From contig CAIWVX010000013.1 of assembly GCA_903916205.1 (NCBI GenBank), positions 1-18,447 on the forward strand: a stretch of 18,447 nucleotides of DNA. Direction: 5' to 3'. Below are positions 1 to 18,305 of the stretch, in pieces; position 1 is the first letter of the stretch; the number at the start of each line of letters is the position of its first letter. The notes under the pieces are model-generated. The model worked only from the letters and a program-made list of their open reading frames with translations. It ran no database searches and was not told where the DNA came from. Source of the stretch: an uncultured beta proteobacterium (GTDB lineage: Bacteria; Pseudomonadota; Gammaproteobacteria; Burkholderiales; Rhodocyclaceae). Made by a program: the position numbers and the translations under genes.

Positions 1-3000
1 CTGGCCCCTACAATCAAGTCGGACAAACCGTCGCCGTTGACATCGCCCGCGTCCGATACCGAGATACCACTGTTGTCACCTGCGGCTTCACCGTTAATGA
101 CAAACCCTCCCGTCCCTGCCGCAATCGCTGAAAGCTCAATAGGAATAAAGACAGAAAAATTCAAGGTCGTGGCATCAGCCATCCCAACATAATAATTGCC
201 AAAGAAATCTTTAACTGCCGTAGCCTCCACAGTGACGTAATACGCCCCTCCTAAAACCAAATTGTTGGTCGAGTTGATCGTCAGAGTAGCGCCACTAAAC
301 GTCACTTGGGTGCTATCGGTAATAGCAATAATCCGCGTGTCGCTGGGCGTGTTGGCATTGGTAATGACGATATTGCCCGTCCCCATAAACACGTTTTTGT
401 TGAAAGTCAGCACAATGTTGCTCTCAGGCAACAATGACCGATCATCAGCCGGAGTCGAGCGGGAGAGTATCGGGGCGGTTTCAATCACCGGTAGCGGCTG
501 GGAGTCGATGTTGGCAATGGGGCTGTGGGTAAAGGCGTTGCCTGCGGCGTCGCTGATGTATCTCGTTAACACCGTATTGAGCGCATCCTCATCAATAACG
601 GTTTGACCGTTCTGACCGGCACCAATGGTATAAGTCAGCGTGCGCGTGTTGCCGTTGCCACCCCAGTTGGCACTGACTCCGGTTCCTCCTACCGTAAAGA
701 TAGTGCTGTCGGTGCCACTGGTCAGGCCACTTACCGTACCGTCAAAGGTAATGGTCAGGGTGATGGTTTCACCCAAGCTGTCGCCACCTGTCGTGCCGGT
801 TAGGACGGGACCCAGCGTGTACGACGGCGCGGTGCTGGAGAGTGTCGGGGCGGTGGTGTCAATCATCGGCAGCGCCGTGGTGTCGATTTCGGTAATGGCG
901 CCGTCGGTAAAGGCGTTGCCTGCGGCATCCCTGATGCCGCTTTCCAGCACCGCCTTGAGCGCCACCTCATCAATCATGGCTTGGCCGTTCTGGCCGGCGT
1001 GAATGGTATAGGTCAGCGTGCGTATGTTGGTGCCATCAGTGCCATGCCAACTTGCGCTTACCCCGTTGCTGGCAAGGGTTCCGCCGACCTTAAAGATGCT
1101 AACGTCGTCGAGGCTACCCGTGGTCAGACCATTCACGGCACCGTCAAAGGTTAGGGTCAGGGTGATGGTTTCATTCTCGCTGTTGCCCGCCGTGCCCGCT
1201 ACGGCGGTGCCTAGCGTGTACGATGGTGCGGTGCTGGAAAGTGTTGGGGCCGTCGTGTCAACCTTATAACTCCCATTCAAGAGAACCGGATTAAAGGTCG
1301 TCACCGCCGCATTACCCGCCGCGTCCGTTAGCGTGGCCGTACCCGGCGCTAGGTTGGCATCAATCGCAATCCCGTCAGTATCCGTGTCCCCCGCCGCAAT
1401 GGTGTAGGTGAAATAAAGTAATGATCCACTCGTATTCGCATAGGTCGCCGTACGTGGGCCACTGTCGAGGTTTAAGGTCAGCGTTGGCGTGCCAGTAACG
1501 GTGGTGGCCTCGCTCATTATCACGGCAACGGTAACAATGTCGTCCACGTTCAAGTAAGCGCCTTGCCTATTGGAGCCGTGGCTGATGCTCACTGAACTCA
1601 CCGTCGGGGCCGTGGTGTCAATCACCGGCAGCGGTGTGGTGTCGATCTCGGCAATGGCACCGTGGGTAAAGGCGTTGCCTGCGGCGTTGCTGATGTGTGT
1701 TCTTAGCACCGTATTGAGCGCCGCCTCATCAATCATAGCTTGGCCGTTATTGCCTGCCTGAATGGTATAGGTCAGCGTGCGAGTGTTACCGCTGCCACCC
1801 CAATTTGCGCTGACTCCGGTTCCTCCTACCGTAAAGATACTGCTGTCGGTGCCACTGGTCAGGCCGCTTACCGTATCGTCAAAGGTAATGGTCAGGGTGA
1901 TGGTTTCTCCCTGGGTATCGCCACCCGTCGCGCCGGTTAGGGCGGCACCCAGCGTGTATGACGGCGCGGTGCTGGAGAGTGTCGGCGCGGTATTGTCTAC
2001 CGTGTAGCCGGTGTAGGTGATGGAATCGGCTGTTGGTGGAACTAAAAGTTGGTGCGTGACATTACCGGTGATCGCGCCCGAATTGTCAGCCACTAGGCTG
2101 GTTAAGCTGATGGCTGTGCCATTGCCTGTTGCCGGTACGCTGCCGGTGAAGGTGAGGGTGTTGACACCGGTCACTGCTGTGGCGGTAGCGGTTACGTCCT
2201 GGCCGTTAACGCTGAAATGCGCCGTCATCGGCCCCGTGCTCGTCACCGCTTCGCTCAGGGTGACGACAAAATTTAGCGCATCGCCGGATTGGCCTAGATT
2301 GGTATTGCCAACGCGGTCGGTCACGCTGATGCGTTGTACTACCGGCGGGGCGAGCACACTGACATCGAGCGTTTTGGTGGCCGTCAAACCACCGCCATCG
2401 GTGGCTGTTGCCGTCAGAGAATACGGTGTTGTGCTTACCGCGTCGAAGTTGTTATGCGAAATGTGGCCCGACGCATTGATGCTAAAACCGGCGGCGAGGC
2501 TTGCGTCGTCAAGTGCGTATTTGAGGGTTCCATTCGCGCCCGCATCAACGTCGGTGAAACCCGTGTCGATACCCGCCCAAGTCTGATTAATCACGGCCTG
2601 CGGTACGGTGACCGTAGCGGGCGCCGTCGGGGCTTCGTTCACGTCAGACAGGTTGATAATAAATGTTTTTGTTTTTGACCCCACATTGAGGGTGATGGTG
2701 TAGCTTGGCTTAGACTCAAAATTGAGCACATCGCCGGCCTTGAAGAAAAGCTCATTGCCAACGACTTCAAAGTAGCTGGCGTCCGCGCCGGTGAGCGTGG
2801 CGGTATTGGTCCCTAGACCGTCGTCGATAAATCGGACGGTGCCGACTTTGAGGTGAGACGTGGTCGCGGTGTTTTCAGCCGTCGGGCCAATCGGGTTGAT
2901 CGTGGTGACCGTCTTGCCAGAGGCGTCGGTGGATGTGATGACTTCATTCAGCAAGATGTCCGTTGGGGCGTTATCGATGATGTTGAGTACGACGTAGCTG

Positions 3001-4397
3001 GAGACCGTTAACGCCGGGCTGCCCGATTGGGTGGCCGTAGCGACAATGGTTTTGACACCATCCGCGCCCAAGGCCGTGATGTCGGCGGCCTGAAGCGTGT
3101 AAGTCCATTGGGTGCCGGTAACGACAGCGGTACCGGTGGCGGCGGTGCCAGCAAAGCTTAGATTGACGGCGGTATAACCGGCAACGACGGTGCCGGTGAG
3201 GCTGATCCCGGCGGTCACTTCATTGGGAAGAATGACCCCATCGCCCGTAATCGGATCAATGGTGATCGGGCCTTTGCTGGACAAGGTAGCGCCCACGCTC
3301 TTAAGCGTACCCGGCGTATTAACCTCGGCGATGCTGACCCCTTCAATAAGCAACAGCTTCCCATCGCCTCCGAGAACTGCGCTCGCTTTGTCTCCTGAGA
3401 TGTTTGATACGAGCGTACTTAGGGTGGTTTCCTGATTACCGCCATTCTTCGAGTCAATGCCGGAAAAGGCGGCGAGCGTCGGTGACACATCGGCGCTGGT
3501 GGTCACGTCGCCGGTCAACCCGAAAATCTTGGCGATGGCGGCATTCCAATCGATGACATCCTGTGCAGAGGCTACGCTGCCATCCGCCGCCATCATTTTT
3601 CGTGCGGCAATCGTGGTCAACGGGTTGATGTTGAGGGCCATGCCTGCGCCGCTGTTCACCCCAACCGCGAGCAAGCCTAGGGTGCCAAGATCAGTTAATT
3701 GCCCCGTAGCTTCATCGATATAGTCTCCGCCAGTATCGGTGTTAACCACTTTGGCGATGACTACGCCGTTGTAAGCGCCGATGTCAATACTGAAATTTCC
3801 GTCTTTGTCCACGATACCGGCTAGGCCAAGTTTAGTTTTGCCATCTTGTTGATAAAGCTGGACGGTGACCGTCCCCGCTTTGAATGGGCCCATCTGAAGG
3901 TTGCCGCCAACCAAATTGCTAATTGCCGCAACGGCACCTGTGATTCCTCCGTCTGCCGTAAAGATGGTTCCCAAACCGACAGCGCTGAACGCCAGAGCGA
4001 GTGCCGCACCTGCACCGGTACCAGCGGCTACTTCAACGCTACCCGAGGCCGCCGGATTGGCGGCGCCCCCCGACACAGAAGCGTCGCCAAGCGTTTCTAC
4101 TTCGACTTGGGCCAGCTGTAGCGGTTCATCGCTGGCGCTCTGACTGCTTTCGCCATCCTGCGCGTCAGCGAGCGTGTCGCTGACATCGGAAGATTGTGCC
4201 GAGGCGTCCTGATCTTCGTCCTCTGAAGGCTTGCGCTTGACGGTCTTTTTCTTTTTGCCAGCCGTCTGCTGCGCAGCTTGAAGCTCAGGTGTGCCGACTG
4301 GCGATGCGATGTCAGACGACACCTCTTGAAGCGACGCATCCTGTTCATTGGCTACTACATTGTGAGCGTCAGCCGAACGAAAATCGTTGGATTTCAT
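1..4397 (-). CDS. Giant Ig-like/cadherin-domain repeat adhesin (C-terminus beyond the window)
   Basis: One frame stays open for 1465 codons from the ATG at 4397 to the window edge. The N-terminal ~110 residues are polar and charged, with a short lysine run (KKKKTVKRK) and no signal peptide. An alanine/glycine-rich hydrophobic stretch (ALALAFSAVGLG) follows, then a domain with a Gly-Asp-rich beta pattern. From about 2990 down to 2630 there is a cadherin-type module (PTDILLNE, FIDDGLGTNTATLTGADA, ending DVNEAPT), followed by a second cadherin-like module. Three copies of a repeat starting TAPTLSSTAPSYTLG, one unrelated Ig-like module between them, and an SbsA-type Ig-like module follow. The last visible residues (GDVNGDGLSDLIVGA) are an FG-GAP-type calcium-binding repeat. 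Known relatives are surface or biofilm adhesins, often exported by type I secretion with a C-terminal signal; that signal would lie outside the window, so the export route is inference. AAAGGA lies a few bases before the ATG and supports this start. Confidence 0.85.
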   Translation of the reverse strand, partial: MKSNDFRSADAHNVVANEQDASLQEVSSDIASPVGTPELQAAQQTAGKKKKTVKRKPSEDEDQDASAQSSDVSDTLADAQDGESSQSASDEPLQLAQVEVETLGDASVSGGAANPAASGSVEVAAGTGAGAALALAFSAVGLGTIFTADGGITGAVAAISNLVGGNLQMGPFKAGTVTVQLYQQDGKTKLGLAGIVDKDGNFSIDIGAYNGVVIAKVVNTDTGGDYIDEATGQLTDLGTLGLLAVGVNSGAGMALNINPLTTIAARKMMAADGSVASAQDVIDWNAAIAKIFGLTGDVTTSADVSPTLAAFSGIDSKNGGNQETTLSTLVSNISGDKASAVLGGDGKLLLIEGVSIAEVNTPGTLKSVGATLSSKGPITIDPITGDGVILPNEVTAGISLTGTVVAGYTAVNLSFAGTAATGTAVVTGTQWTYTLQAADITALGADGVKTIVATATQSGSPALTVSSYVVLNIIDNAPTDILLNEVITSTDASGKTVTTINPIGPTAENTATTSHLKVGTVRFIDDGLGTNTATLTGADASYFEVVGNELFFKAGDVLNFESKPSYTITLNVGSKTKTFIINLSDVNEAPTAPATVTVPQAVINQTWAGIDTGFTDVDAGANGTLKYALDDASLAAGFSINASGHISHNNFDAVSTTPYSLTATATDGGGLTATKTLDVSVLAPPVVQRISVTDRVGNTNLGQSGDALNFVVTLSEAVTSTGPMTAHFSVNGQDVTATATAVTGVNTLTFTGSVPATGNGTAISLTSLVADNSGAITGNVTHQLLVPPTADSITYTGYTVDNTAPTLSSTAPSYTLGAALTGATGGDTQGETITLTITFDDTVSGLTSGTDSSIFTVGGTGVSANWGGSGNTRTLTYTIQAGNNGQAMIDEAALNTVLRTHISNAAGNAFTHGAIAEIDTTPLPVIDTTAPTVSSVSISHGSNRQGAYLNVDDIVTVAVIMSEATTVTGTPTLTLNLDSGPRTATYANTSGSLLYFTYTIAAGDTDTDGIAIDANLAPGTATLTDAAGNAAVTTFNPVLLNGSYKVDTTAPTLSSTAPSYTLGTAVAGTAGNSENETITLTLTFDGAVNGLTTGSLDDVSIFKVGGTLASNGVSASWHGTDGTNIRTLTYTIHAGQNGQAMIDEVALKAVLESGIRDAAGNAFTDGAITEIDTTALPMIDTTAPTLSSTAPSYTLGPVLTGTTGGDSLGETITLTITFDGTVSGLTSGTDSTIFTVGGTGVSANWGGNGNTRTLTYTIGAGQNGQTVIDEDALNTVLTRYISDAAGNAFTHSPIANIDSQPLPVIETAPILSRSTPADDRSLLPESNIVLTFNKNVFMGTGNIVITNANTPSDTRIIAITDSTQVTFSGATLTINSTNNLVLGGAYYVTVEATAVKDFFGNYYVGMADATTLNFSVFIPIELSAIAAGTGGFVINGEAAGDNSGISVSDAGDVNGDGLSDLIVGA
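483..860 (-). repeat. Adhesin repeat unit, copy C (126 codons)
   Basis: The unit starts DTTAPTLSSTAPSYTLG and ends near SQPLPVI. It is the same length as the copy at 1620-1997 and closely similar to it at the DNA level, including shared runs such as GACTCCGGTTCCTCCTACCG on the plus strand. It is a bacterial Ig-like module with a TLTYTI core and an AAGNAFTH tail. Confidence 0.8.
861..1259 (-). repeat. Adhesin repeat unit, copy B (133 codons, diverged)
   Basis: Same opening motif (DTTAPTLSSTAPSYTLG) and same core (RTLTYTI, GQNGQAMIDE, DAAGNAFTDGAI) as the other two copies. It is seven codons longer because of small insertions around SLDDVSIF and TLASNGVSASWHGTDGTN. It lies directly beside copy C and is more diverged from copies A and C than these are from each other. 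Confidence 0.8.
1620..1997 (-). repeat. Adhesin repeat unit, copy A (126 codons)
   Basis: Starts DNTAPTLSSTAPSYTLG and ends TTPLPVI. It is separated from copy B by a different Ig-like module (1260-1619, opening DTTAPTVSSVSI). It is nearly the same as copy C in DNA and protein, which suggests recent duplication or gene conversion between the two outer copies. Confidence 0.8.
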
Positions 4398-5069
4398 GGC
4401 ATTCCTTTAAATGTTATGTCAATTTATTAAGGGTTAAAAAACAACCTCCCCTGTTGCAATGTTCGAATGGGGATGATCCTGATTTTTTAGACGTTGAGGT
4501 GCGGAAAGTCACGCAATTTCGACGAGGAGGAGTTTGACGGCGATGTTGGCCTGCCGGAACCCCTGCCACAGACCTACTAGGCGCAGCATCGATTGGCTTA
4601 TGCGCCCTGCTAACATTTGGAAAAACACAGCACATTTTTATGCCGGATGTCGCGAAGCCTAATGGTCTATATGTTGTATCACTCCTTGAAGGTACAAAGC
4701 ATTTATTTTTTCACTGGATTCTGATGGTATATGAGAGTAATCCTTTTGCATATATGACTTTATGCATAGACACTCGTTTGGCATTATGTAACTTCTATTG
4801 AAATCATCGACTTGAAATTTTTTATGACGATAAATAAATGTAAAATAAACCATCACGGCGCAAAATAAGGGATTAAAACCTGCTGTCGTGGAGTTTTTAC
4901 GCGCATTTATGGGCGCAGACGGGGATGACGACAACGGGGTCGTCGATGGTGGAATTTGCGAAACAGCCCCCTTGCTAAATGCAGCGACAGGGTGAGCTGA
5001 CGTGAGGAACTTTCGCCAGAAAGTCCATCATGCTCGTCTCATCAAGAGACGAAAGCAGAACCCGATGAA
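4398..5069. other. Intergenic stretch without an intact gene
   Basis: No frame here looks like a recognisable protein. Just upstream of the adhesin ATG (4398-4440) the DNA is AT-rich and probably holds its promoter, but no convincing -35/-10 pair is visible. Positions ~4640-4890 are clearly more AT-rich than either flank. On the plus strand 4905-4997 there is a short open stretch with an acidic run (DGDDDNGVVDGG) that ends in a stop. The sequence around 4950-4975 (GGGGCTGTTTCGCAAATTCC on the minus strand) resembles the termini of some IS5-type insertion sequences, but no partner end was found. Two hairpins lie at 5006-5052. Confidence 0.6.
5006..5052. other. Pair of adjacent hairpins
   Basis: Hairpin 1 is GGAACTTTC (5006-5014), loop GCCA, GAAAGTCC (5019-5026), with a single bulged A. 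Hairpin 2 is TCGTCTC (5034-5040), loop ATCAA, GAGACGA (5046-5052), a perfect 7-bp stem. No T-run follows on either strand, so these do not look like standard intrinsic terminators. The function is unknown; a structured RNA or the end of a mobile element is possible. Confidence 0.4.
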
Positions 5070-5257: not shown

Positions 5258-5704
5258 CTATAGCGAATCGTCGTCGAGTCTGAGGCGGGCGGCGTATTCG
5301 TCTTGGGCTTTTTGTTCGTGCCGAATCTGCAGAATTTCTTCGTTGGCAAAGTGGCGATCAGATAGGGTGTCAAATGCCTTGAGTTTAATGCGTTGCTGCT
5401 GCCAGTGTGCCTGGCCTGTTGAGGTGTTTTGTATCTCTTGCTGGACGGTCTGGTTTTGCGCTTCTATGGCGTCGTCTATGCGGATGAGAAATTCCTGAAA
5501 ATTTTGCCATTCGTTGGGTCTCAGTCCGTTTTGCGCGGCTTGCTGGAAGCGCGTGGCGTATTCGTCACGATACTGTAGCAGCATTTGGAGTTTGACTTTT
5601 GCATCGCGTTCGTTGGCGATTAGGCGTGCTAGACGATTGGTGGCTTCGTCGGCACGGACTTGCATTAAATCAAGAACGACTTGGAGTGAGAACGGCTTGG
5701 CCAT
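5258..5704 (-). CDS. fliJ: Flagellar export chaperone/stalk protein FliJ
   Basis: A 148-residue protein that is almost entirely helical and rich in Gln, Arg, Asp and Ala, with heptad-like spacing over its whole length (for example NRLARLIANERDAKVKLQMLLQYRDEY). This matches FliJ, the coiled-coil stalk that links the FliI hexamer to the export gate FlhA and helps recycle chaperones. The start MAKPFSLQ is typical of the family and the length is usual. It starts 10 bp after the fliI stop, so it belongs to the same transcript. Identification rests on coiled-coil character, length and position; FliJ sequences are poorly conserved. In many proteobacteria fliK follows; here a gene remnant and an adhesin do. 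Confidence 0.85.
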   Translation of the reverse strand: MAKPFSLQVVLDLMQVRADEATNRLARLIANERDAKVKLQMLLQYRDEYATRFQQAAQNGLRPNEWQNFQEFLIRIDDAIEAQNQTVQQEIQNTSTGQAHWQQQRIKLKAFDTLSDRHFANEEILQIRHEQKAQDEYAARLRLDDDSL

Positions 5705-5714
5705 GATTACGGGG

Positions 5715-7121
5715 TTAGACTAAAGCAAAGAGTTGATCAAGGCTTTGCGGAAAATCAGCGCGTTGATTCAGCGTTTGCTGTAAAAAATTTTCAAATGCGG
5801 GATAAAGTTTGATGGCTTGATCGAGTAATGGATCGGAACCGCTAGCATAAGCACCAACACTGATCAGGTCACGAGAACGTTGGTAGCGTGTGTAAAATTG
5901 TTTGAATTGACGAATTTTCTCAAAGTGTTCTGGTTTGATCAGACTGACCATCGCCCGCGAGATGGATTGTTCGATATCAATGGCCGGATAGTGGCCGGCA
6001 TCCGATAGCGTTCTCGAAAGCACGATGTGTCCGTCAAGGATGGCGCGGGCGGCATCGGCAATGGGGTCTTGTTGGTCGTCGCCCTCGGTCAGTACCGTGT
6101 AAAAGGCCGTGATTGAGCCGCCGCCATCCGCGCCGTTGCCCGCACGTTCAACAAGTTGGGGCAGTCGGGCAAACACCGAAGGCGGGTAGCCTCGGGTGAC
6201 GGGGGGCTCGCCGATGGCTAAGGCGATTTCTCGTTGCGCCATAGCAAAACGAGTGAGCGAGTCCATGATTAGCAAAACATGGCGACCTTGATCGCGAAAA
6301 TATTCGGCAATCGATGTGGCATATGACGCGCCTTGAAGACGCATTAAGGGGCTGACGTCAGCGGGGGCGGCGACGACAACGGAGCGTTCTAGACCTTCTT
6401 TGCCGAGAATTTGCTCGATGAATTCTTTGACTTCACGGCCACGCTCGCCGATTAGCCCGACCACAATCACGTCCGCCGATGTGTAGCGTGCCATCATCCC
6501 GAGTAGAACACTTTTGCCCACGCCCGAACCGGCGAATAATCCCATGCGTTGTCCGCGTCCCACGGTAAGCAGCGCGTTGATGGCCCGCACGCCCACATCA
6601 AGTGACTGCTCGATGGCGGCGCGTAACATCGGGTTGATGGGGCGTCCCTGTAGTGGGCGCATGGTTTCGGTTTGGAGCGGGCCAAGTTGATCTAGGGGGC
6701 GGCCACCCCCATCGACAATTCGCCCCAGCAGACTCTCGCCGACGGGCAGCATTTTCGCTCGGTCAACCGCTCGGCGTCGGATGGCCGTAGGCTGCCCTAT
6801 TTTGGGTGCGGTACACGGTGCTTCTAAGGCGACAACCTTGGCTCCCGGAGACAAGCCATAGACATCTTCGCAAGGCATGAGAAAAAGTCGCTCTCCATTG
6901 AATCCAACAACCTCGGCTTCAATTGGCGAACCACCCACAGGGAGTATTCGGCAGGAGCTGCCCAGAGGCAGTTTGAGTCCTGCGGCTTCCATGACCAGCC
7001 CATTGATGCGGGTAAGGTGCCCGCTGGGGAGCAAGGGTGTGGATTGACTCGCGGCATCGCGGCAGTTTTCGAGAAAATCAGACCAACCCGATAGGTGCTT
7101 GTTTTGATCGCTCAGACTCAT
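5715..7121 (-). CDS. fliI: Flagellum-specific export ATPase FliI
   Basis: A 468-residue protein of the F1-ATPase beta-subunit-like FliI/YscN family, which forms a hexamer at the base of the flagellar export gate and couples ATP hydrolysis to substrate unloading. Visible motifs are the Walker A loop AGSGVGKS (197-204), GERGRE with the catalytic glutamate (225-230), Walker B LLIMDS (283-288) and the family signature with [16 protein letters not shown] (about 355-370). The N-terminal ~20 residues would bind FliH. The start ATG lies 6 bp after the fliH stop, with a GAAGG site inside the end of fliH, so the two are translationally close. Length is normal and no key residue is missing. Confidence 0.97.
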
Positions 7122-7127
7122 GCGACA

Positions 7128-7835
7128 TCAGCCTTCGTCACTTAGCCATTCTTGGCTGACACCGATGGACTCTAGCACCCGCTGCCAGCGGCTTTCTAGG
7201 GTGGCATCGACTTCGCTGGCGCCTAGTTCGACGCGACAGCCACCGGGAGTGATTGAGGCGTCTTCAATAATTTTCCAGTTGGTGTGGGAAAGTTGCTCGC
7301 CAAGGTGACTGCGAATCAGTACGGCGTCCTTTGGATGGGCGATCAGCAAGGGATGCCCTTGATGCGGGTGAAGCGTGGCAATAGCCTCTTTGACGACCGG
7401 AATAAGCCATTCGGGTTTGATCTTTAGGCTTTGACGGATGACTTGTTTGGCAATCTCAACGGAGGTAGACAGCAATTGTTCGGCGACCTGTTGGTCGAGT
7501 TCGTGCAGCGCGTGTTGCAGGTTCGACATTAAGGTATCAATTTGCGCGGCGGCATCGCGGGCTTTAGCAATGCCTTCTTCATAACCCGCGTCATAGCCTT
7601 GCTGATGCGCGTCAACATGCATTTGCTCAATTTCAGCGGCGGTTGGAAAAATGACGGGCGGCTCATCCTGTAATGCGATAACGGGCTCAGGATCGGGCTC
7701 GGGTTCTGGCTCCGCTTCCGGCTCCGGCGCGACGTCAAGGGCGGTATTGGCTGCGGCTTGCTCGGCCTCGTCAAAGGCAGCAACCTCCCAGCGTTCATAA
7801 GCCGATAGTTTTTCTTTGGGGATGAAACCGGTCAT
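7128..7835 (-). CDS. fliH: Flagellar assembly protein FliH (FliI regulator)
   Basis: A 235-residue protein in the FliH/YscL family, which dimerises, binds the N-terminus of FliI, restrains its ATPase activity and anchors it to the C ring through FliN. The start MTGFIPKEKLSAYERWEV is a typical FliH N-terminus. Residues ~35-52 form a linker of alternating Glu/Pro (EPEAEPEPEPDPEP). A helical segment with the usual GYDAGYEEGIAKA repeat follows (about 80-95), then the conserved C-terminal domain with SVEIAKQVIRQSLK and ITPGGCRVE. It starts 13 bp after the fliFG stop and sits in the standard G-H-I-J order. The Glu/Pro linker varies between species and probably keeps the N-terminal anchor flexible. 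Confidence 0.93.
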   Translation of the reverse strand: MTGFIPKEKLSAYERWEVAAFDEAEQAAANTALDVAPEPEAEPEPEPDPEPVIALQDEPPVIFPTAAEIEQMHVDAHQQGYDAGYEEGIAKARDAAAQIDTLMSNLQHALHELDQQVAEQLLSTSVEIAKQVIRQSLKIKPEWLIPVVKEAIATLHPHQGHPLLIAHPKDAVLIRSHLGEQLSHTNWKIIEDASITPGGCRVELGASEVDATLESRWQRVLESIGVSQEWLSDEG

Positions 7836-7848
7836 GGGCGCACGAGGC

Positions 7849-10485
7849 TCAGATCATTTCCTCGCCACCCGCGCCGCTTAGCACGATCTGGCCTTCGTCG
7901 GCCAATCGGCGGACGATCTTGAGGATTTCCTTTTGCTCGGCTTCGACCTCAGAGAGACGTACCGGGCCGCGCGACTCCAAGTCTTCGCGCAGCATTTCAG
8001 CGGCGCGTTGCGACATGTTCTTGAAGATTTTTTCACGTAAGTTTTCTGAGGCACCTTTCATCGCCAGAATCAGCGAATCAGATTGGATTTCACGCAGCAG
8101 CGATTGGATCGCACGATCATCAAGGTCAAGCAGATTCTCAAAGACGAACATTTCGTCAAGAACGCGTTGCGCGAGATCCGGGTCATATTCGCGGATTGAC
8201 TCAATGACGGTGGCTTCATTGGCACTACCCATGAAGTTAAGAATCTCGGCCACTGAACGAACCCCACCCATGGCGGCTTTCTTGATATTGGCAGAACCCG
8301 AGAGCAGACGCAGCATGACGTCATTCAACTCTCTCAAGGCATCGGGTTGAATGCCTTCTAGGGTGGCGATACGTAACACCACATCGTTGCGTAAGCGATC
8401 AGTGAACTGGTTAAGTATGGCGCTGGCGTGATCATTCTCCAGATGCACAAGAATGGTGGCAATAATCTGTGGATGCTCGTTGCGAATGAGATCGGCAACG
8501 GTCGGCGCATCCATCCATTTGAGCCCTTCAATCCCGTTGGTTTCGCCACCTTGCAGGATGCGCGAAATGAGGTTGGCGGCTTTGTCGTCACCCAGTGCTT
8601 TGGTCAGTACCGAACGCACGTAAGCATCGGTATCAACATGCACAGCCGCCGATTCGTTCACCGTTCTTTGGAACTCGGCCAGCACTTCCTCGACGCGCGC
8701 ACGTGGTACCGTCTTGAGCGCGGCCATGGCGTGCCCGAGTTTCTGCACTTCCTTGGGAGTGAGATGCATGAGTACTTGAGAAGCGAAATCCTCGCCCAGT
8801 GAAATAAGCAAAATTGCACTCTTTTCTATGCCTTCTTCACCGCCATTGGCTGTCCAGTCTCTGATGATATTGACGACAACCTTCGGATCTTGTTGAGCGA
8901 TAGCGCGTGCCTGTGCAAGTTTTTCTTCGAAGGATTCGGCGGCTGTCGGTGGGGTTATGGTCTCCTCGTCATCAACTATGTCGACGTTCTCACCAAGCGT
9001 CTCGGGCTGTTCCTCTGGTGGAACCTCGGTCATGGTCTTGATCAGTGGTCGAATAACCTTAATTATGAGGTAAAGCACAATGGCGGCCAGCGCTGCATAC
9101 TTGAAAAATTCCTTGAGCAAAGAAAGAACTTCAGGATCTCTCCACATGGGAATCACGATCTCATTGCGATCAATCGTTGAGAACGGCGCGTTAGCTACCG
9201 AAACGGTATCTCCGCGTTCTTTTTTGAATCCCAGCGCTTCTTTAACCAGTACATTAATTTGCTTGATTTCAGTTTCTTCAAGCGGCTTGAGTAAGCCTCT
9301 AGCATCTTTGCGATGATTGATTACTACGGCGGCGGATAGTCGATTGATGGTGCCGATGGATTGTTTGGTGTGGCGAATCGTTTTGTCGACTTCGTAATTG
9401 ATTGTCGAGTCTTTACGCGTATTTATCGGTTGGCCCGAACCGTTTTGTCCTGAGCCAAGGCCTGGGGGTTCGACAATTGGGGCGGTGGCGGGGACGGGCG
9501 GTTGATTGCTTAGGGCGCCAGGTACGCCTTGAGCGTTAGGCGTGACAGTACCTGATTCGCTGGTTTGCTGGCTGCGAATAGCAATATCCGGCGGTGTCGT
9601 ATTGGGCCGGTGGGTTTCTGCTGTTTGTTCGTTTTGCGAAAAATCAACATCTGCGGCGACTTGGACTCGGGCGTTACCGTTACCCACAATGGGGAGCAAA
9701 ATATCTTCAATACGCTTAATGGCGTTCGCTTCAATTTCCTGAACATACTTGATCTGCGTCGGATCAAGTCCGGCTTCCATGAGTTTGCTTTTAAGTTGGG
9801 AAAGCATCGCGCCACTCTGATCAATCAGTGTCACGCTCGAAACCGCTAGGCTCGGGACGCTGGCCGCTACCAAATTCTGGATACCCGCAATTTGCGATGC
9901 TTCGAGAGACCGTCCTGGATAAAGGTTTAGCATTACCGAGGCGGAGGGCTTTAATTCTTCACGTACGAATACTGTTGGCTTGGGGATCGCCAAATGAACA
10001 CGAGCGGCCTGCACCGAGCCAATCGACTGAATGGTTCGTGACAATTCACCTTCAAGGCCGCGCTGGTAATTAACTTGTTCGGCAAATTGGCTGATGCCAA
10101 ACTTTTGATTTTCCATCAGTTCAAAGCCAACGCCCCCTCCTTTGGGTAAGCCTTGAGTGGCTAAGCGAAGACGAACTTCATGCACCCGAACGCCGGGAAT
10201 TAAAATGGCTCCGCCACTTTCACTGAATTTGTAGGGGACGTTGAGTTGCTCAAGGGACGCAATAATTGCGCCACCGTCACGTTCTGAAATATTGGAGAAA
10301 AGAACGCGATAATCGCTTTGTTTGAACCAGGTGTTGCTGGCCACGAGTAAAGCCACAATGACCGCAAAAGAAACCATCAGCAGGATTTTTTGCTGGTTGT
10401 TTAAGCGCGCTAACGCATTACGCAGACGATCTTTTAGATTATCTGCGTCTTCTGGAATTGTCGGATTGGATTCGATTGCCGCCAT
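7849..10485 (-). CDS. fliF-fliG: FliF-FliG fusion: MS-ring protein joined to rotor switch protein
   Basis: One uninterrupted frame encodes 878 residues, where FliF alone is usually about 550-590 and FliG about 330. Residues 1-545 are FliF: TM1 (about 34-50), the YscJ-like ring domains (VLFSN, GVGFELM, QRGLEGELSRTI, ARVHLAIPKPTVFVRE), a Pro/Gly/Ser-rich linker (290-355), TM2 (about 462-480) and the cytoplasmic FliG-binding tail (ARAIAQQDPKVVVNIIRDW). Residues 551-878 are a full FliG: GIEKSAILLISLGED, LTPKEVQKLG, the NEHPQ motif (669-673), MFVFENLL (779-786) and the torque helix region (NLREKIFKNMSQRAAEML, then EDLESRGPVRLSEVE). The junction is at 546-552 (ANGGEEG), near position 8835. No in-frame stop, Met or Val start lies at the junction. 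The ring would therefore carry rotor and base in strict 1:1 ratio. The alternative is a sequencing or assembly indel. Confidence 0.95.
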   Translation of the reverse strand: MAAIESNPTIPEDADNLKDRLRNALARLNNQQKILLMVSFAVIVALLVASNTWFKQSDYRVLFSNISERDGGAIIASLEQLNVPYKFSESGGAILIPGVRVHEVRLRLATQGLPKGGGVGFELMENQKFGISQFAEQVNYQRGLEGELSRTIQSIGSVQAARVHLAIPKPTVFVREELKPSASVMLNLYPGRSLEASQIAGIQNLVAASVPSLAVSSVTLIDQSGAMLSQLKSKLMEAGLDPTQIKYVQEIEANAIKRIEDILLPIVGNGNARVQVAADVDFSQNEQTAETHRPNTTPPDIAIRSQQTSESGTVTPNAQGVPGALSNQPPVPATAPIVEPPGLGSGQNGSGQPINTRKDSTINYEVDKTIRHTKQSIGTINRLSAAVVINHRKDARGLLKPLEETEIKQINVLVKEALGFKKERGDTVSVANAPFSTIDRNEIVIPMWRDPEVLSLLKEFFKYAALAAIVLYLIIKVIRPLIKTMTEVPPEEQPETLGENVDIVDDEETITPPTAAESFEEKLAQARAIAQQDPKVVVNIIRDWTANGGEEGIEKSAILLISLGEDFASQVLMHLTPKEVQKLGHAMAALKTVPRARVEEVLAEFQRTVNESAAVHVDTDAYVRSVLTKALGDDKAANLISRILQGGETNGIEGLKWMDAPTVADLIRNEHPQIIATILVHLENDHASAILNQFTDRLRNDVVLRIATLEGIQPDALRELNDVMLRLLSGSANIKKAAMGGVRSVAEILNFMGSANEATVIESIREYDPDLAQRVLDEMFVFENLLDLDDRAIQSLLREIQSDSLILAMKGASENLREKIFKNMSQRAAEMLREDLESRGPVRLSEVEAEQKEILKIVRRLADEGQIVLSGAGGEEMI

Positions 10486-10571
10486 GCCTGTGATAGTTTG
10501 CTAACTTTGAGATTAATCAAAGCAAAGAGCGAAAAGTTGGGTGAAATATTCTACTATTGTATCTGTTAATT

Positions 10572-10585
10572 GCACTGGATTTTCC
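10572..10585 (-). promoter_or_regulatory. Candidate sigma-54 promoter for fliFGHIJ
   Basis: On the minus strand GGGAAAATCCAGTGCAA carries a GG (10585-10584) and GC (10573-10572) exactly ten bases apart, the essential sigma-54 spacing, and the -12 half TGCA is good. The -24 half is weaker than consensus (GGGAAA against TGGCAC). Transcription would start near 10560, leaving a ~75-base leader to the fliF ATG. It overlaps the first codons of the divergent fleS region. Confidence 0.4.
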
Positions 10586-10590
10586 CTCGA

Positions 10591-11781
10591 ATGAATGATG
10601 TGACGCAAATTGTCGTTCCCGATCCAAAAGCACAGGAGTTGCAACGTGCGTTTGATGTGTTCAATCAGGTTTCTTTGGAGCTGACGCAAGCTTACGAAGG
10701 ATTGCAAAACCGCGTTGAATCGCTTACTTCTGAATTGGCCGTGGCCAATGGCGAATTACGTCGCCAATTTCAGGAGAAAGAAGCCTTGTCCGAGCGACTT
10801 GCCTTGCTGCTCAATGCCCTACCGGCAGGCGTGGTGGTTCTTGATAATTCAGCCGCCGTCAGTGAAGCCAACCCGGTTGCTCGGGACATGTTCGGTGAGA
10901 CCATCATCGGCGGCGACTGGTTATCGTTGACACAAAATCATCTCAAACCAACCGACGCGCCTGATGAGTGGGAATTAGGCGAGCGCCGCGTAGCCATCGC
11001 TGAAAGCCCACTTGATTCTGCCGGGGGGCGGCTCTTACTCATTCATGACATTACTGTAGCTTATGAGTTGAAGGCCAATGCAGAACGCAACCAGCGACTC
11101 GCCGCTATGGGTGAAATGGCGGCTTCTTTGGCGCATCAGTTGCGTACGCCCTTGGCGACGGCATTACTCTACAGTTCTAATTTGGCGCGGGCTGAACTTT
11201 CTAACACCGCTCGGAAACGTTTTGCCAGCAAAGCGACGGAGCAATTGAAACGTCTGGAGCATCTTATTCAGGATGTTCTGCTGTTTGCCCGTGGCGAGAG
11301 TATTGGTCGTGACGTGATTCATGCCGCAACACTTCTTTTGGAAGCCGCGCAGACGATGGAACCGCTTTATCTTGAAAAAGGGATCCGTTTTTCTGCCGCG
11401 TCGACGGTTGGTGACTTTATAATTACCGGTAGTCGAAAGGCGCTCGGTGGCGCGTTGTTGAATCTCTTGGAAAATGCGTTACAAGCCTGTGAGAGTCGAG
11501 GTCGCAGCACCGGAGAAGTAAAATTATCCGCCGAAATATCGGGGCGACAGGTAAGAATTAGCGTGCGCGATACCGGTGGCGGTATTACACCAGAGGCACA
11601 GGCGCGAATTTTCGAGCCTTTTTTCACGACTCGTGGTCATGGTACGGGGCTTGGCTTGGCGATTGCGCTTGGTGTGGCGAAGGCGCATGGCGGGAGTATT
11701 GAAGTTAGCTCATTACCGGGAGAAGGGTCGGAGTTCGTTATGCTCTTACCTGCCGGTTCTGCTGTCGAAGATCAAGAGTGA
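10591..11781 (+). CDS. fleS: Flagellar sensor histidine kinase FleS (FlrB/AtoS type)
   Basis: A 396-residue soluble kinase with no membrane segment. The N-terminal ~70 residues are a coiled coil, followed by a small PAS-like domain (about 70-155: LLNALPAGVVVLDNSAAVSEANP, ending LLLIHDITVA). The dimerisation/phosphoacceptor helix is MGEMAASLAHQLRTPLATAL with His182. The ATP-binding domain shows the N box (NLLENALQAC, 291-300), G1 box (DTGGGI, 327-332), F box (FFTT) and G2 box (GTGLGLAIA, 351-359). The HQLRTPL form is typical of FleS/FlrB, which phosphorylates FleR/FlrC to switch on later flagellar genes from sigma-54 promoters. I chose the ATG at 10591; a TTG seven codons earlier is possible but no better supported. 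fleR follows after 27 bp and forms its partner. Confidence 0.92.
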   Translation: MNDVTQIVVPDPKAQELQRAFDVFNQVSLELTQAYEGLQNRVESLTSELAVANGELRRQFQEKEALSERLALLLNALPAGVVVLDNSAAVSEANPVARDMFGETIIGGDWLSLTQNHLKPTDAPDEWELGERRVAIAESPLDSAGGRLLLIHDITVAYELKANAERNQRLAAMGEMAASLAHQLRTPLATALLYSSNLARAELSNTARKRFASKATEQLKRLEHLIQDVLLFARGESIGRDVIHAATLLLEAAQTMEPLYLEKGIRFSAASTVGDFIITGSRKALGGALLNLLENALQACESRGRSTGEVKLSAEISGRQVRISVRDTGGGITPEAQARIFEPFFTTRGHGTGLGLAIALGVAKAHGGSIEVSSLPGEGSEFVMLLPAGSAVEDQE

Positions 11782-11808: not shown

Positions 11809-13176
11809 ATGGCTCAGGGTTTACCGATACTGGTTGTCGAGGACGACGCAAATTTGCTTGAAGCGGTTTGCGATACGCTAGAGCTTGCCGGACAGAAGGT
11901 GCTTTCGGCGTCGGGAGGTGAGGCCGCGCTCAACTTGCTCAGCGCTCAATCGGTGGCCTTGGTGGTGAGCGATGTGCGCATGATGCCGATGGATGGCATT
12001 GCCCTACTCAAGGAGATTCGCAGTCGTTTTCCGCATCTCCCGGTGGTCTTAATGACCGCCTATGCCGATGTTGATCGGGCGGTCGAAGCCATGCGCTCCG
12101 GTGCCTGTGACTTTTTGCTCAAGCCGTTTGAACCCAAGGCTTTGCTAGAGCATGTAGCACGCTATCGTTTGCCCGAAGAAATGGATGACGACCGGGTGGT
12201 CGCTAAAGATCCGGTTAGCCGCAATTTATTCGCGCTGGCTATGCGCGTAGCCCAAACGGATACCACGGTTTTGTTGACCGGTGAAAGCGGTGTCGGCAAG
12301 GAAGTGGTTGCTCGCTATATCCATAATCATTCCGTACGCCGAACCGGGCCATTTGTCGCCATCAACTGTGCGGCTATCCCCGATAGTCTGCTGGAGGCGA
12401 CGCTTTTTGGTTACGAGAAAGGCGCGTTTACCGGCGCACAACAGGCACAGGCCGGTAAGTTCGAGCAGGCGCAAAACGGGACTCTTTTACTCGATGAAGT
12501 CACTGAGATGCCTCTGGGCTTACAGGCCAAACTGTTGCGCGTATTGCAGGAGCGAGAAGTCGAGCGGGTGGGGGGTAAAAAACCGGTGGTACTGGATATT
12601 CGCATCATTGCCACGTCGAACCGAGATATGGCCGACGCCGTTACCAAGGGCATTTTGCGTGAAGATGTTTATTATCGGCTCAACGTTTTCCCGCTACTCA
12701 TTCCCGCCTTACGCCAGCGACCCGAAGATATTGTTCCGTTGGCGCAGCACTTTCTCGCCGAACACGGCGGTCGTTCGGGCCGAACCGGTTTGCGATTGTC
12801 ACCTTTGGCGGAACAGGCGCTAAGCGTTCATGCCTGGCCCGGCAATGTGCGCGAGCTTGAAAATGTAATGCAACGGGCGGTAATTTTTGCCAGTGGCGAG
12901 TGTGTAGAGCCTGATGCCCTTCATCTTTCTGTCTTACCGGCCGTTAAAGTAAGTACACCGGCTTCCGCGACTGTTGTTTCTATGGCGATGCCTTCGTTAG
13001 AGAGTGAAGGGCAAAAAAAAGATAACTTGCGCGATCTCGAACGAGAGCATATTCTTGAAACATTAGAGGCGGTGGGTGGATCACGAAAATTGGCCGGTGA
13101 GCGGCTTGGCATGTCTGATCGCACGTTGCGCTACAAACTCAAGCAATATCGCGATACAGGACATCTTTTGGAATAG
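11809..13176 (+). CDS. fleR: Sigma-54-dependent flagellar response regulator FleR (FlrC)
   Basis: A 455-residue NtrC-family activator in three parts. The receiver domain (1-120) has the acidic pocket EDD (11-13), phosphoacceptor Asp55 in VSDVRMMPMDG and Lys105 in LLKPF. The AAA+ domain (about 132-365) has Walker A GESGVGKE (158-165), the sigma-54-contacting loop GAFTGA (205-210), Walker B LLLDE (226-230), an arginine finger region LREDVYYRLNVFPL and WPGNVRELENV. The C-terminal Fis-type helix-turn-helix (about 408-446) reads LEREHILETLEAVGGS, then KLAGERLGMSDRTLRYKLK. It would be activated by FleS and drive sigma-54 flagellar promoters such as the one directly downstream in front of fliE. All key residues are present. 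It starts 27 bp after fleS. Confidence 0.95.
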   Translation: MAQGLPILVVEDDANLLEAVCDTLELAGQKVLSASGGEAALNLLSAQSVALVVSDVRMMPMDGIALLKEIRSRFPHLPVVLMTAYADVDRAVEAMRSGACDFLLKPFEPKALLEHVARYRLPEEMDDDRVVAKDPVSRNLFALAMRVAQTDTTVLLTGESGVGKEVVARYIHNHSVRRTGPFVAINCAAIPDSLLEATLFGYEKGAFTGAQQAQAGKFEQAQNGTLLLDEVTEMPLGLQAKLLRVLQEREVERVGGKKPVVLDIRIIATSNRDMADAVTKGILREDVYYRLNVFPLLIPALRQRPEDIVPLAQHFLAEHGGRSGRTGLRLSPLAEQALSVHAWPGNVRELENVMQRAVIFASGECVEPDALHLSVLPAVKVSTPASATVVSMAMPSLESEGQKKDNLRDLEREHILETLEAVGGSRKLAGERLGMSDRTLRYKLKQYRDTGHLLE

Positions 13177-13237: not shown

Positions 13238-13561
13238 ATGGATACCCAAGGTATTGACCAGATGTTAAGCCTGTTGCGTGCGTCAACCGCGCAAGCAACA
13301 GGCCGTGTTTCCGAGGCCCAAGGCGGCGAGGAGAAGGGTGTCGATTTTGCGCAGGTTCTGCAAAATTCGATTTCCCAAGTCAATCAGACTCAGCAAAAGG
13401 CAGAAACAATGGCGGCAAATTTTGCCGCCGGAGACAGTACGGCAAATCTGCATGAGGTCATGATCTCGTTGCAGAAGGCCAATATTTCATTTCAAGAAAT
13501 GGTTCAAGTCAGAAACAAGCTGGTTACCGCCTATCATGACGTGATGAATATGTCCGTTTGA
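13238..13561 (+). CDS. fliE: Flagellar hook-basal body junction protein FliE
   Basis: A 107-residue protein of normal FliE length. The C-terminal half carries the family signature: LHEVMISLQKANISFQEMVQ followed by VRNKLVTAYHDVMNMSV. FliE is the first rod-type protein exported and sits between the MS ring and the proximal rod. A good ribosome binding site (GGAGAAG, 13228-13234) sets the start. It is a single-gene unit between its own sigma-54 promoter and a strong terminator. This is unusual, since fliE commonly leads directly into fliF on the same strand, while here fliF points the other way nearly 3 kb off. Confidence 0.95.
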   Translation: MDTQGIDQMLSLLRASTAQATGRVSEAQGGEEKGVDFAQVLQNSISQVNQTQQKAETMAANFAAGDSTANLHEVMISLQKANISFQEMVQVRNKLVTAYHDVMNMSV

Positions 13562-13627: not shown

Positions 13628-14134
13628 TTACACGCGGAGTTCGGTCATTTGACCAAACTCAAATTTGAGTTGCGTCCATTGACTGACCGGCAGTTGCCGG
13701 TAGTGTCCGAGCAGTGCGCGTAAGATACCGGCGTGGGTGACTAGCACCATGCGCGGGCCGGTAAGTGAGGACACCAAATCAACCGCACGACGTTGCAGAC
13801 AGACGACTGATTCTCCACCGGGTGGCGTGAATTCAAGGACGTTGGCGGCCCAAGCATCAAGGCTATCGCGCTGGATGTCGGCCCATGGCCGACCTTCCCA
13901 TTCGCCAAAGTTGATTTCACTCAGACGCGCATCGATTTTCATTTGAGGATCGAGGGCTAAGGCCAACTTTCGAGCGCGCAACAAAGGACTGGAGATCACC
14001 GGCGTATCGTGGGGAATTCGCTGTTTAAGCGATTTAGCAACGGGCAACGGATCCTCGCAATCGACATCCAGCTGACCGTAGCAGATCCCCGCATCAATGA
14101 GAGGGCGCGAGTGACGGATCAGAAAAAGTTGCAT
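13628..14134 (-). CDS. cobC: Alpha-ribazole-5'-phosphate phosphatase CobC (histidine phosphatase family)
   Basis: A 168-residue histidine phosphatase. The phosphohistidine motif LIRHSRP has Arg7 and His8; Arg53 lies in SSPLLRARKLA; the acid/base region is INFGEWEG (74-81); the second catalytic His134 is in VLVTHAG. CobC removes the 5'-phosphate from the alpha-ribazole moiety in the late steps of cobalamin assembly. The start overlaps the end of the upstream cobS by 16 bp (ATG inside the last codons of cobS), so the two are co-translated. The name rests on this context, since other members of the family are phosphoglycerate mutases and similar enzymes. It is slightly short for the family but complete. 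Confidence 0.88.
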   Translation of the reverse strand: MQLFLIRHSRPLIDAGICYGQLDVDCEDPLPVAKSLKQRIPHDTPVISSPLLRARKLALALDPQMKIDARLSEINFGEWEGRPWADIQRDSLDAWAANVLEFTPPGGESVVCLQRRAVDLVSSLTGPRMVLVTHAGILRALLGHYRQLPVSQWTQLKFEFGQMTELRV

Positions 14135-14874
14135 AACAGTCCGCCGTAAAAAGCCACTTCAGAAAGTTGTTGTGTCGCACCCAGACAATCGCCGGTGTAG
14201 CCGCCGAGGCGCTGCTTGAATAGACGTGCTAACCACAGGGTAACGAGCAAGGCGAAGACAACGGCCCAGAGCGCCTGTTGTGCAGACAACAACCCGAGTG
14301 GAAGCAGCGCAGTCACGGTGGCGAAGGCCAACCCACGGTCACTGAGGGCGGTTGTGAGGTGCTTGGATTTGCCTTCTTCGCGCACGTAATCAAGGCTGCG
14401 CAGCACGAGGGTTGCGCACAGGCGTGAAAAAGCATGTCCGGCGACTAGCGCCAACGGTATCAGCAATAGATCGATTTCAACCAGCAGAAAAAATTTCGAC
14501 AGCAATATGACTACCAAGGCCAAGGTACCGAAACTCCCGATCTGTGAGTCTTTCATGATCGCCAAAATTTGCGATTTATCCGTGCCGCCGCCGAAACCGT
14601 CCACCATATCGCTCCAACCGTCTTCGTGGAACGCTCCCGTAAGCGACAGGCTGATGGCCATTGAGGCTAGCACGGCCAAGGTTTTTGGCCAGAATATGGA
14701 GACTAGAATAAAGACCGCTGCCGCGATGCTACCAATAACCAAGCCGACTACCGGGAAATAGCGCGTTGATCGCACCAGCGCCTCGTTGCTGTGACCAACC
14801 CAAGCAGGAACCGGCAGCCGCGTGAAGAAGCGAAGGGCGCCAAAGAAAGATTCGAGTTCGTTACGCAGCGGCAT
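14119..14874 (-). CDS. cobS: Adenosylcobinamide-GDP ribazoletransferase CobS, downstream copy
   Basis: A 251-residue membrane protein with about six hydrophobic segments. It joins adenosyl-GDP-cobinamide to alpha-ribazole (phosphate) at the inner membrane. The acidic metal-binding motif is HEDGWSDMVDGFGGG (Asp85, Asp89, Asp92), followed by ILAIMKDSQIGSFG; the C-terminal signature is GGYTGDCLGATQQLSEVAFYG. The more common form of the motif is DGLADTADG, so Trp, Ser, Met and Val here are a local variant, shared with the second copy. The N-terminus reads MPLRNELESFFGALRFFTRLP, as usual for CobS. It overlaps cobC and is separated from cobT1 by 194 bp holding a long hairpin. Confidence 0.95.
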   Translation of the reverse strand: MPLRNELESFFGALRFFTRLPVPAWVGHSNEALVRSTRYFPVVGLVIGSIAAAVFILVSIFWPKTLAVLASMAISLSLTGAFHEDGWSDMVDGFGGGTDKSQILAIMKDSQIGSFGTLALVVILLSKFFLLVEIDLLLIPLALVAGHAFSRLCATLVLRSLDYVREEGKSKHLTTALSDRGLAFATVTALLPLGLLSAQQALWAVVFALLVTLWLARLFKQRLGGYTGDCLGATQQLSEVAFYGGLLCNFF

Positions 14875-14910
14875 GGGCTATTATCAAGTGAGGAAATAGC
14901 GATTTAGGTG

Positions 14911-15032
14911 CGCATCCAGCGTCCCTAACCGCCTGTCGGGCTTGATGGGTTGACGCGAAAAATGAGCCGTCTTCCCACATTTTGCAGCCGACTTGGTCAA
15001 GTCTGACAGGCGGCTAGATTCACGCCGGTGCG
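14911..15032. other. 122-nt imperfect hairpin between cobS1 and cobT1
   Basis: The inner arms CCGCCTGTCGGGCTTGA (14929-14945) and TCAAGTCTGACAGGCGG (14997-15013) form a 17-bp stem if two G-U pairs are allowed; these exist only in RNA read from the plus strand. Outside an internal loop, CGCATCCAGCG (14911-14921) pairs with CGCCGGTGCG (15023-15032) apart from one mismatch and one bulge. Inside, AAAATG can pair with CATTTT. There is no T-run. It could be a structured RNA, an mRNA processing site or a small palindromic element. Confidence 0.5.
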
Positions 15033-15068
15033 GGAATACGCCGAGAGGAAAGAAGCTGGTTTTGAACA

Positions 15069-16109
15069 TTAACCCTTCTCGCTAACGCCCGCCGACTCAA
15101 AGCTGGCCATTTCGTTGAGAAAGGCGGCCGAGGCGCGGATCAGGGGCCAGGCTAAAGCCGCACCGGTGCCTTCGCCGAGGCGTAGGCCCAGGTCGATTAA
15201 GGGGTCGGCATTAAGGTCATGCAATTGGGCGAGGTGACCGGGTTCAGCTGAGCGGTGGCAAAAAATGCAGTACTCACTAATCGTCGAGGCTAGGCGCGAG
15301 GCGGCGAGAAGGGCCGAGGTGACGATGAAACCATCAATTAGCAGGATCATCCCGCGTTCGGCGGCACCAAGCATGGCCCCGGTCATCATAACGGTCTCAA
15401 AGCCGCCAAATTCGGCGAGTACCTCTAGGGGCTTGGCGTTGGTCGGAAGCGCTGCACGCTGGGTCGCCTGTGTCAGCAGATCACGTTTACGGGCCAAGCC
15501 AGCGTCGTCCAAGCCCGTTCCACGGCCAATGCAATCGACGAGCGGCGCACCGGTCAGGGCGTGGGTAATCAGCGCGGCAGAGGCGGTGTTACCAATGCCC
15601 ATTTCACCGAAACCCAAAACATTGCACCCTTCATCCGCCAAGGCGCGGGCGATTTCAACCCCTTTGGCGAGAGCCGCCGCACATTCGGCTTGGCTCATCG
15701 CCGGTTCGTCAATGTAGTTGCGCGTTCCCGGCCCGGTCTTGGCGTTAATAAGACCGTCGCGCAAACCGAATTCATGGGCAACGCCTGCGTCGATGACTTT
15801 GAGTGCCATGCCGCTTTGCCGGGCGAAAACATTGATAGCCGCGCCGCCGGAAAGAAAATTCTCAACCATCTGCCAGGTCACCTCTTGAGGAAAGGCCGAA
15901 ACGCCGACCTTGGCCGCACCATGATCGCCGGCAAACACCAGTAAATGCGGATGGCTTAGCTGAGGGGTTAGCGACTGCTGAATACGCCCGATCTGGCGAG
16001 CCAGTGTTTCAAGCTGCCCCAGCGAACCTTGCGGCTTAGTCTTGTTGTCGATCTTATGCTGCAAAGCCGAATCAAGGGCTGTGCCGAGAGGCGGAATCAA
16101 GAAATTCAT
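15069..16109 (-). CDS. cobT: Nicotinate-nucleotide-dimethylbenzimidazole phosphoribosyltransferase CobT, downstream copy
   Basis: A 346-residue enzyme that transfers phosphoribose from nicotinate mononucleotide to the lower-ligand base (classically 5,6-dimethylbenzimidazole) to give alpha-ribazole phosphate. Motifs are [12 protein letters not shown] (24-34), FAGDHGAAK (59-67), [12 protein letters not shown], the [10 protein letters not shown] loop with Glu169, CIGRGTG, and the catalytic glutamate in LGEGTGA (Glu313). I chose the ATG at 16109 ([13 protein letters not shown]) because it aligns with the start of the second copy. A GTG 20 codons upstream would add a stretch that matches nothing in the family. 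The first 70 residues share 47 identities, by eye, with the upstream copy. The gap to cobS2 upstream is 81 bp, so co-transcription is likely. Confidence 0.95.
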
Positions 16110-16190
16110 AGGATCAATTTTCTGAGAAGGGGATAAAAAAGTGGAAAAGTGATATGGGTTACCGCACACGTCTTGAAAGTGAAGTTTGTT

Positions 16191-16946
16191 TCAGGGCAGC
16201 CGAAACAGTAGGCCGCCGTAGAAAGCTACTTCTGAAAGTTGTTGCACAGCACCGATGCAATCGCCGGTATAACCGCCGATTTGGCGTTTGAACAAGCGTG
16301 CCAGCCACACGGTTACCGCCAGCGCAAGGAGCAGAGCCATGATCACGTGTTGTGGCGGAAGCAACAGCAGCGGCAGCAGACCGCATACGGTAGCTAGAGC
16401 CAATTCGCCCCACCCCAAGCGGTTATTGAAGACCTTGGCTTTGCCGTCATCGCGGGCGTAATCGAGGGCCGCCAGTACGTAAGTGGCGCACAGTCGCGAG
16501 AGCGCGTGCCCGGCAATCAATGCTGCCGGTATCTGATACAGATCGATTTCGATCAGAGTGAAGAAACGCACCATCAGCATCATCACCAGCGCCGTGGCAC
16601 CAAAACTTCCGACACACGAATCACGCATGATTTCGAGGATCTTCTCTTTGGTCCAGCCGCCGCCGAAGCCGTCGACCATATCGCTCCATCCGTCCTCGTG
16701 AATGGCCCCGGTGAAATAGATGGCGGCACTGATGGCGACCAGAACGGCCAGCGTCTTGGGCCAGAAAAAGGAGGCTACGGTGAAAAATAGTGCAGCAATT
16801 ACACCGACTATCGCACCGACCGCCGGGTAATAACGAACGGCGCGTTCAAGTGACAAACGGCCATAGCCGAATGAACCGGGCACCGACAACCGGGTGAAAA
16901 AACGGATAGCCCCAATAAAGGTTTCAAACTCGGATCGAAGAGACAT
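16191..16946 (-). CDS. cobS: Adenosylcobinamide-GDP ribazoletransferase CobS, upstream copy
   Basis: A 251-residue CobS of exactly the same length and register as the downstream copy: HEDGWSDMVDGFGGG again at residues 83-97, then ILEIMRDSCVGSFG, and GGYTGDCIGAVQQLSEVAFYG near the end. The shared W/S/M/V variant in the acidic motif shows that the two copies are sisters from one duplication. Differences are spread through the membrane segments. The membrane topology is retained and no motif residue is lost, so both copies look functional. It lies 118 bp downstream of cobT2 and 81 bp upstream of cobT1. Confidence 0.95.
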   Translation of the reverse strand: MSLRSEFETFIGAIRFFTRLSVPGSFGYGRLSLERAVRYYPAVGAIVGVIAALFFTVASFFWPKTLAVLVAISAAIYFTGAIHEDGWSDMVDGFGGGWTKEKILEIMRDSCVGSFGATALVMMLMVRFFTLIEIDLYQIPAALIAGHALSRLCATYVLAALDYARDDGKAKVFNNRLGWGELALATVCGLLPLLLLPPQHVIMALLLALAVTVWLARLFKRQIGGYTGDCIGAVQQLSEVAFYGGLLFRLP

Positions 16947-17064
16947 TGAAGGTGTCGGCCAGTTGTTTCAGGAAACTGCAAAGTTCATTGATTTTTCTCA
17001 CGCCGAGTAGCTCCCGAAAACGGACTTAACTGGCGGCTAAGTTGTGTTGAAGTCAAGCCACCGG

Positions 17065-18111: not shown

Positions 18112-18138
18112 GACGTGACGCATCCCAAAAAAACGTTG

Positions 18139-18144
18139 ATTATA
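18139..18144 (-). promoter_or_regulatory. Candidate -10 box for cobT2
   Basis: A perfect TATAAT on the minus strand, 28-33 bases before the chosen cobT2 ATG. Transcription would start near 18131, leaving a leader of about 20 bases. No good -35 hexamer lies at the right distance, so either an activator is needed or the match is chance. Confidence 0.3.
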
Positions 18145-18305
18145 CGCCCCCGATTCAGTGGCAGATTTCCACACGTGAACCCAAATTCTGCGATTAAAAT
18201 TCTCCTAGCCTGCCGGTTGATATTCTTTTATATTTTTGATCACTGCTGTCCGGTTAAATGAAGGCTTGAATCGCTGAAAGCTATGATTGATGCGGTCTCC
18301 GAGGA

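Follow-up and report, generated by a model that had tools for sequence, protein, structure and literature searches.

A single open reading frame for FliF and FliG in a draft Rhodocyclaceae genome and the one-base gap behind it

Does a single open reading frame that holds both FliF and FliG reflect a real gene fusion, or are these two ordinary overlapping genes at whose junction the consensus sequence has lost one base? This question is raised by a frame in the window, i.e., the whole stretch of 18,447 nucleotides that was analysed and that represents the entire contig C13 of its source genome. The assembly of this genome is fragmented (501 contigs, 2.25 Mb), with a completeness of 78.9% and 5.1% contamination.

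The fused frame and its two halves

The coding strand of the frame is the minus strand, the plus-strand reading of 7849-10485 being full of stops (Table 1). A search of the 878-aa protein against NCBIfam assigned residues 18-547 to the FliF family TIGR00206 (E 1e-125, model positions 9-553 of 555) with a score of 420.8 bits against a cut-off of 129.75, and residues 552-877 to the FliG family TIGR00207 (E 1.4e-111, model positions 11-336 of 338) with 373.2 bits against a cut-off of 226.7. All three FliG domains (N, M and C) are included, and the order of Pfam domains along the frame is YscJ_FliF, YscJ_FliF_C, FliG_N, FliG_M, FliG_C. With both families matched above their cut-offs, the given sequence contains, far beyond chance, one stop-free frame with a complete FliF and a complete FliG, as a preliminary description of this DNA had stated. 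The residues at the join are DWTANGGEEGIEK; the ANGGEEG region and an out-of-frame ATG at 8846 were found where that description had placed them. A separate FliG starting from this old ATG was considered and rejected, as its frame, read by eye, closes after six codons. No separate fliF or fliG, for which the preliminary description had wanted the genome checked, was found: the fused frame is the sole match to either gene in the source genome, which is about 79% complete.

Table 1. Positions of the fused frame, its parts and the neighbouring flagellar and regulatory genes in the window.
Feature	Position	Strand	Details
Fused FliF-FliG open frame	7849..10485	minus (10485 -> 7849)	878 aa, ATG start, 0 internal stops
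FliF part	8845..10434	minus	TIGR00206 match, residues 18-547
FliG part	7855..8832	minus	TIGR00207 match, residues 552-877; FliG_N, FliG_M, FliG_C
Join W544-TANGGEE-G552	8830..8856	minus	7-residue joint; Trp-to-Gly 24 nt
One-base gap site (fliF TGA in relatives)	8838..8841	minus	congener alignment
Remnant of ancestral fliG ATG, now out of frame	8844..8846	minus	six codons, then TAG; by eye
fliH	7128..7835	minus	full-length frame
fliI	5715..7121	minus	full-length frame
fliJ	5258..5704	minus	full-length frame
PAS/histidine kinase	10570..11781	plus	domain search
Response regulator with sigma-54 domain	11809..13176	plus	domain search
fliE	13238..13561	plus	domain search

The join in related genomes

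A search of relatives covered 59 genomes, including the window's own, of which 50 gave a match; among genomes of the same genus 26 of 27 matched, G003 being the one without. In all 26 congeners with a readable join fliF and fliG are two genes, and the fliF frame closes at a TGA a few codons past the Trp of the FliF tail, inside the start of fliG. The overlap amounts to approximately 8-14 nt, and fliG lies one base out of frame relative to fliF. The spacing from the Trp codon of the FliF tail to the Gly codon of FliG is 25, 28 or 31 nt in these 26 congeners, i.e., a multiple of three plus one, whereas the window alone exhibits an in-frame spacing of 24 nt. Compared with the commonest congener join of 28 nt, the window is shorter by one in-frame codon, and at the TGA the alignment opens a gap of one base. 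It is this gap that produces the fused frame, for which the loss of the codon is not needed; a single gap at the ancestral fliF TGA therefore explains both the lost stop of FliF and the shifted start of FliG. FliF keeps its entire tail, and FliG loses no more than its first few residues. The ordinary pair of the window's genus (Propionivibrio/Accumulibacter-like) thus has the same genes, the same order and the same overlap sequence, but two reading frames and a fliF TGA, where the window is one base short.

The preliminary description had argued that a change of one base could not account for the fusion. This argument was wrong, because the extra base had been placed after GAAGAAGG, downstream of the ancestral stop. 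While the description was right about the frame and its completeness, the congeners did not bear out its reading of the frame as an established natural fusion: two separate genes in every one of them come close to the result that it had itself named as refuting.

As the fusion is common to none of the 26 congeners, it is not a trait of the lineage. An established and selected fusion, in which the FliF:FliG ratio is locked at 1:1 by design, is accordingly very improbable, although both halves are complete and the frame is open. The old fliG start also persists as an out-of-frame remnant, which points to a young event.

Wider samples were surveyed for further fusions. In the order sample 279 of 399 genomes matched, and among the matches listed the window was the only stop-free span of both genes, each of the other spanning matches containing at least one stop. 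The window was likewise the only stop-free span among the matches listed in the class sample (nine of 369 genomes at E <=1e-150) and in the phylum sample (80 of 398 genomes at E <=1e-100); the three samples overlap in some genomes, and such strict thresholds could hide distant fusions. Several candidates were rejected. G031 and G051 showed large open-frame values, but fliF and fliG are separate in both. In locus L068, flagged in the first screen, fliF ends at a normal stop and FliG is without its N-terminus; at 3690-3710 of this locus, which belongs to a groundwater Betaproteobacteria MAG, fliG lacks its first residues right past the overlap. L012 (G038) contains an internal break of fliG instead of a fusion. 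In L035 / L012 (G038), whose genome is a single contig, this break is a frameshift within the gene.

A second frame of this type was present at L075:2405-5119, in the MAG of Nitrosomonas sp. HKST-UBA151 (identical to G467/L196 by 100% identity and end coordinate). It is an intact FliF-FliG frame of 904 aa with the joint WVN-MDNDG. A search of the genus Nitrosomonas yielded matches in 73 of 85 genomes, of which HKST-UBA151 alone has a stop-free span of both genes. The join spacing was measured on 30 loci of the 73 matching genomes: it is 21 nt in L075/L196, versus 22, 25 or 31 nt together with a fliF stop in all 29 examined congeners. The same kind of one-base join event is thus seen twice, in different genera and both times in draft genomes. 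It might be proposed that the out-of-frame fliF-fliG overlap in Betaproteobacteria is a recurrent fusion hotspot. At least two lineages, the Rhodocyclaceae genus of the window and Nitrosomonas, would then have acquired natural FliF-FliG rotors of full length through independent single-base deletions and would be motile with altered switching; we regard this generalisation as rather doubtful.

A real deletion or a lost base

At present, the observation amounts to a single base, shared by no examined relative, in a draft genome, and two explanations of this base have to be weighed. The one we lean towards is a real, recent and probably tolerated one-base fusion in the sampled population. It is slightly more likely than a sequencing or assembly error, in which the organism would carry ordinary overlapping genes and a base at the fliF stop would be missing from the consensus. 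Such an error is a serious possibility that falls somewhat short of even chances. It would fit with a change of one base in a MAG of this fragmentation, with the two genes present in all 26 congeners, with the fact that the finding was chosen for looking odd, and with the sporadic frame breaks in other fetched loci (5 of 160, see below). However, the gap site contains no long homopolymer, the other genes of the window and approximately 36 kb elsewhere in this genome exhibit no break, and a second genome, the Nitrosomonas MAG, carries the same kind of event. The real deletion is supported by these unbroken 36 kb and the Nitrosomonas case, together with the completeness of both halves and the uniqueness of the gap among the 26 congeners. 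Against it stand the fragmented MAG, the lack of any relative sharing the fusion, the fact that the second case also comes from a MAG, and a joint that is shorter than the one in Vibrio described below.

The 36 kb were obtained in two ways. Sixty further contigs and the window (61 sequences, 302.8 kb) were compared with 800 kb of the congener G026, which yielded 30 gene pairs over 31.1 kb and no frame change. Six of these pairs (7.2 kb) come from the window itself and one (0.5 kb, antisense) was dropped, leaving 23 pairs and approximately 23 kb outside the window. The dropped pair, on L151, bears stops and was rejected as a frame break, because the match is antisense: the other strand carries a frame of at least 328 aa there, which presumably encodes a phosphoserine aminotransferase. 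In addition, congener proteins revealed no frame break in 12.6 kb of contig C59, a region that the comparison with G026 had not reached, after inspection of six stop-bearing matches. For five of them (8707-9540) the frames of the relatives run upstream across the adjacent gene, and in the window's genome the genes at this place are open; the sixth (957-1427) lies opposite an unbroken frame of 163 aa. With no break in approximately 36 kb, the error rate could nevertheless be as high as roughly 8 per 100,000 bases.

A second estimate comes from the fliF/fliG loci themselves. Of 182 loci considered, 160 were distinct and contained both genes, and five of these 160 exhibited breaks inside fliF or fliG. 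Spread over approximately 2.6 kb per locus, this rate leads to an expectation of roughly 0.05 events in the 25-nt join, whereas two were seen. This excess favours tolerated deletions over random error, although it is suggestive only: the argument is weak because the window was preselected and because L075 came from a set of 80 loci kept out of 584 candidates by a ranking that placed same-frame loci high.

If the deletion is real, one base would have been lost at the fliF TGA inside the fliG start, and FliF would then read through into FliG to give the 878-aa chain with its seven-residue joint, while the old fliG ATG would no longer open FliG. Such a change could be tolerated, as the FliF tail and the N-domain of FliG bind 1:1 in any case, so that the motor would still assemble. 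By analogy with other species, the rotor would be expected to work, with its switching bias shifted. While the frame, the overlap in relatives and the one-base gap are observed, the presence of the fusion in cells, the production of its protein and the turning of the motor are inferred.

The expectation is in agreement with fusions made or isolated in the laboratory. According to PMC4768692, PMC7355467 and PMC10128058, artificial fusions of FliF to FliG can build motors that turn, though with biased switching. This agrees with the preliminary description, which had referred to working motors of Salmonella fusions. In one paper, the normal-looking basal bodies of fusion motors are taken as evidence for a 1:1 stoichiometry. 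The Salmonella fusions (Francis 1992; Thomas 2001, as cited in these papers) join FliF and FliG in one chain like the window, and the full-frame one keeps both proteins. Unlike the window's frame, they were laboratory-made or isolated, and suppressors or a linker rich in glycine are reported to alleviate the bias in their rotation. The FliFG fusion of Vibrio alginolyticus (PDB 8Z4D, 8Z4G), which forms MS rings, was made by the same kind of change as in the window, the deletion of one nucleotide at the fliG start (PMC11481574). Its chain in PDB 8Z4D aligns to residues 19-875 of the window's protein. It was, however, engineered and overexpressed in E. coli, and its joint is longer than the seven residues of the window.

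A natural case, with a FliG-like part at the C-terminus of FliF, is reported for Chlamydiaceae in PMC4768692 and lends some support to an established lineage fusion in the window. There, FliF is short and lacks part of the ring domains, only homology to the M-region of FliG is present, and the bacteria are not regarded as flagellated (PMC4768692). The window, in contrast, has a full FliF and all three FliG domains. A literature search that left most subscription journals outside its scope found no natural full-length FliF-FliG fusion. A natural full-length fusion beside a flagellar gene cluster would be new, while engineered full-length fusions and the partial ones of Chlamydiaceae are already known. 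If the base was lost in the consensus instead, the locus would serve as a caution that one lost base at an out-of-frame gene overlap writes a convincing fusion protein.

State of the flagellar locus and other genes of the window

The deletion could also be one step in the loss of the flagellum from a decaying locus. L068, where the overlap is broken in another way and FliG is left without its N-terminus, fits with this idea. Yet the frames of fliE, fliH, fliI, fliJ and both regulators are open over their full length, as is the remainder of the 2.6-kb frame, and FliG of the window is 85-90% identical to that of nine relatives with low dN, which makes decay the least probable of the explanations considered, below even the lineage-wide fusion. 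The ratio dN/dS was dropped as a sign of selection after the fusion, since dS to the relatives was near saturation or not computable and therefore uninformative; post-fusion selection is thus not measurable.

The layout of the cluster looks ordinary: the histidine kinase, the sigma-54 response regulator and fliE diverge from fliFG-fliH-fliI-fliJ. From their position we take the kinase to be FleS-like and the response regulator to be FleR-like. The remaining genes of the window are also full-length frames. At 3-4406 (minus strand) an open-ended frame of at least 1468 aa runs off the contig; its product is repetitive and surface-protein-like, with weak matches to BatD and cadherin. In the region 13628-18174 (minus strand) a cobC-like gene precedes two cobS-cobT pairs that stand in tandem and have diverged, with 60% identity between the CobS copies and 63% between the CobT copies.
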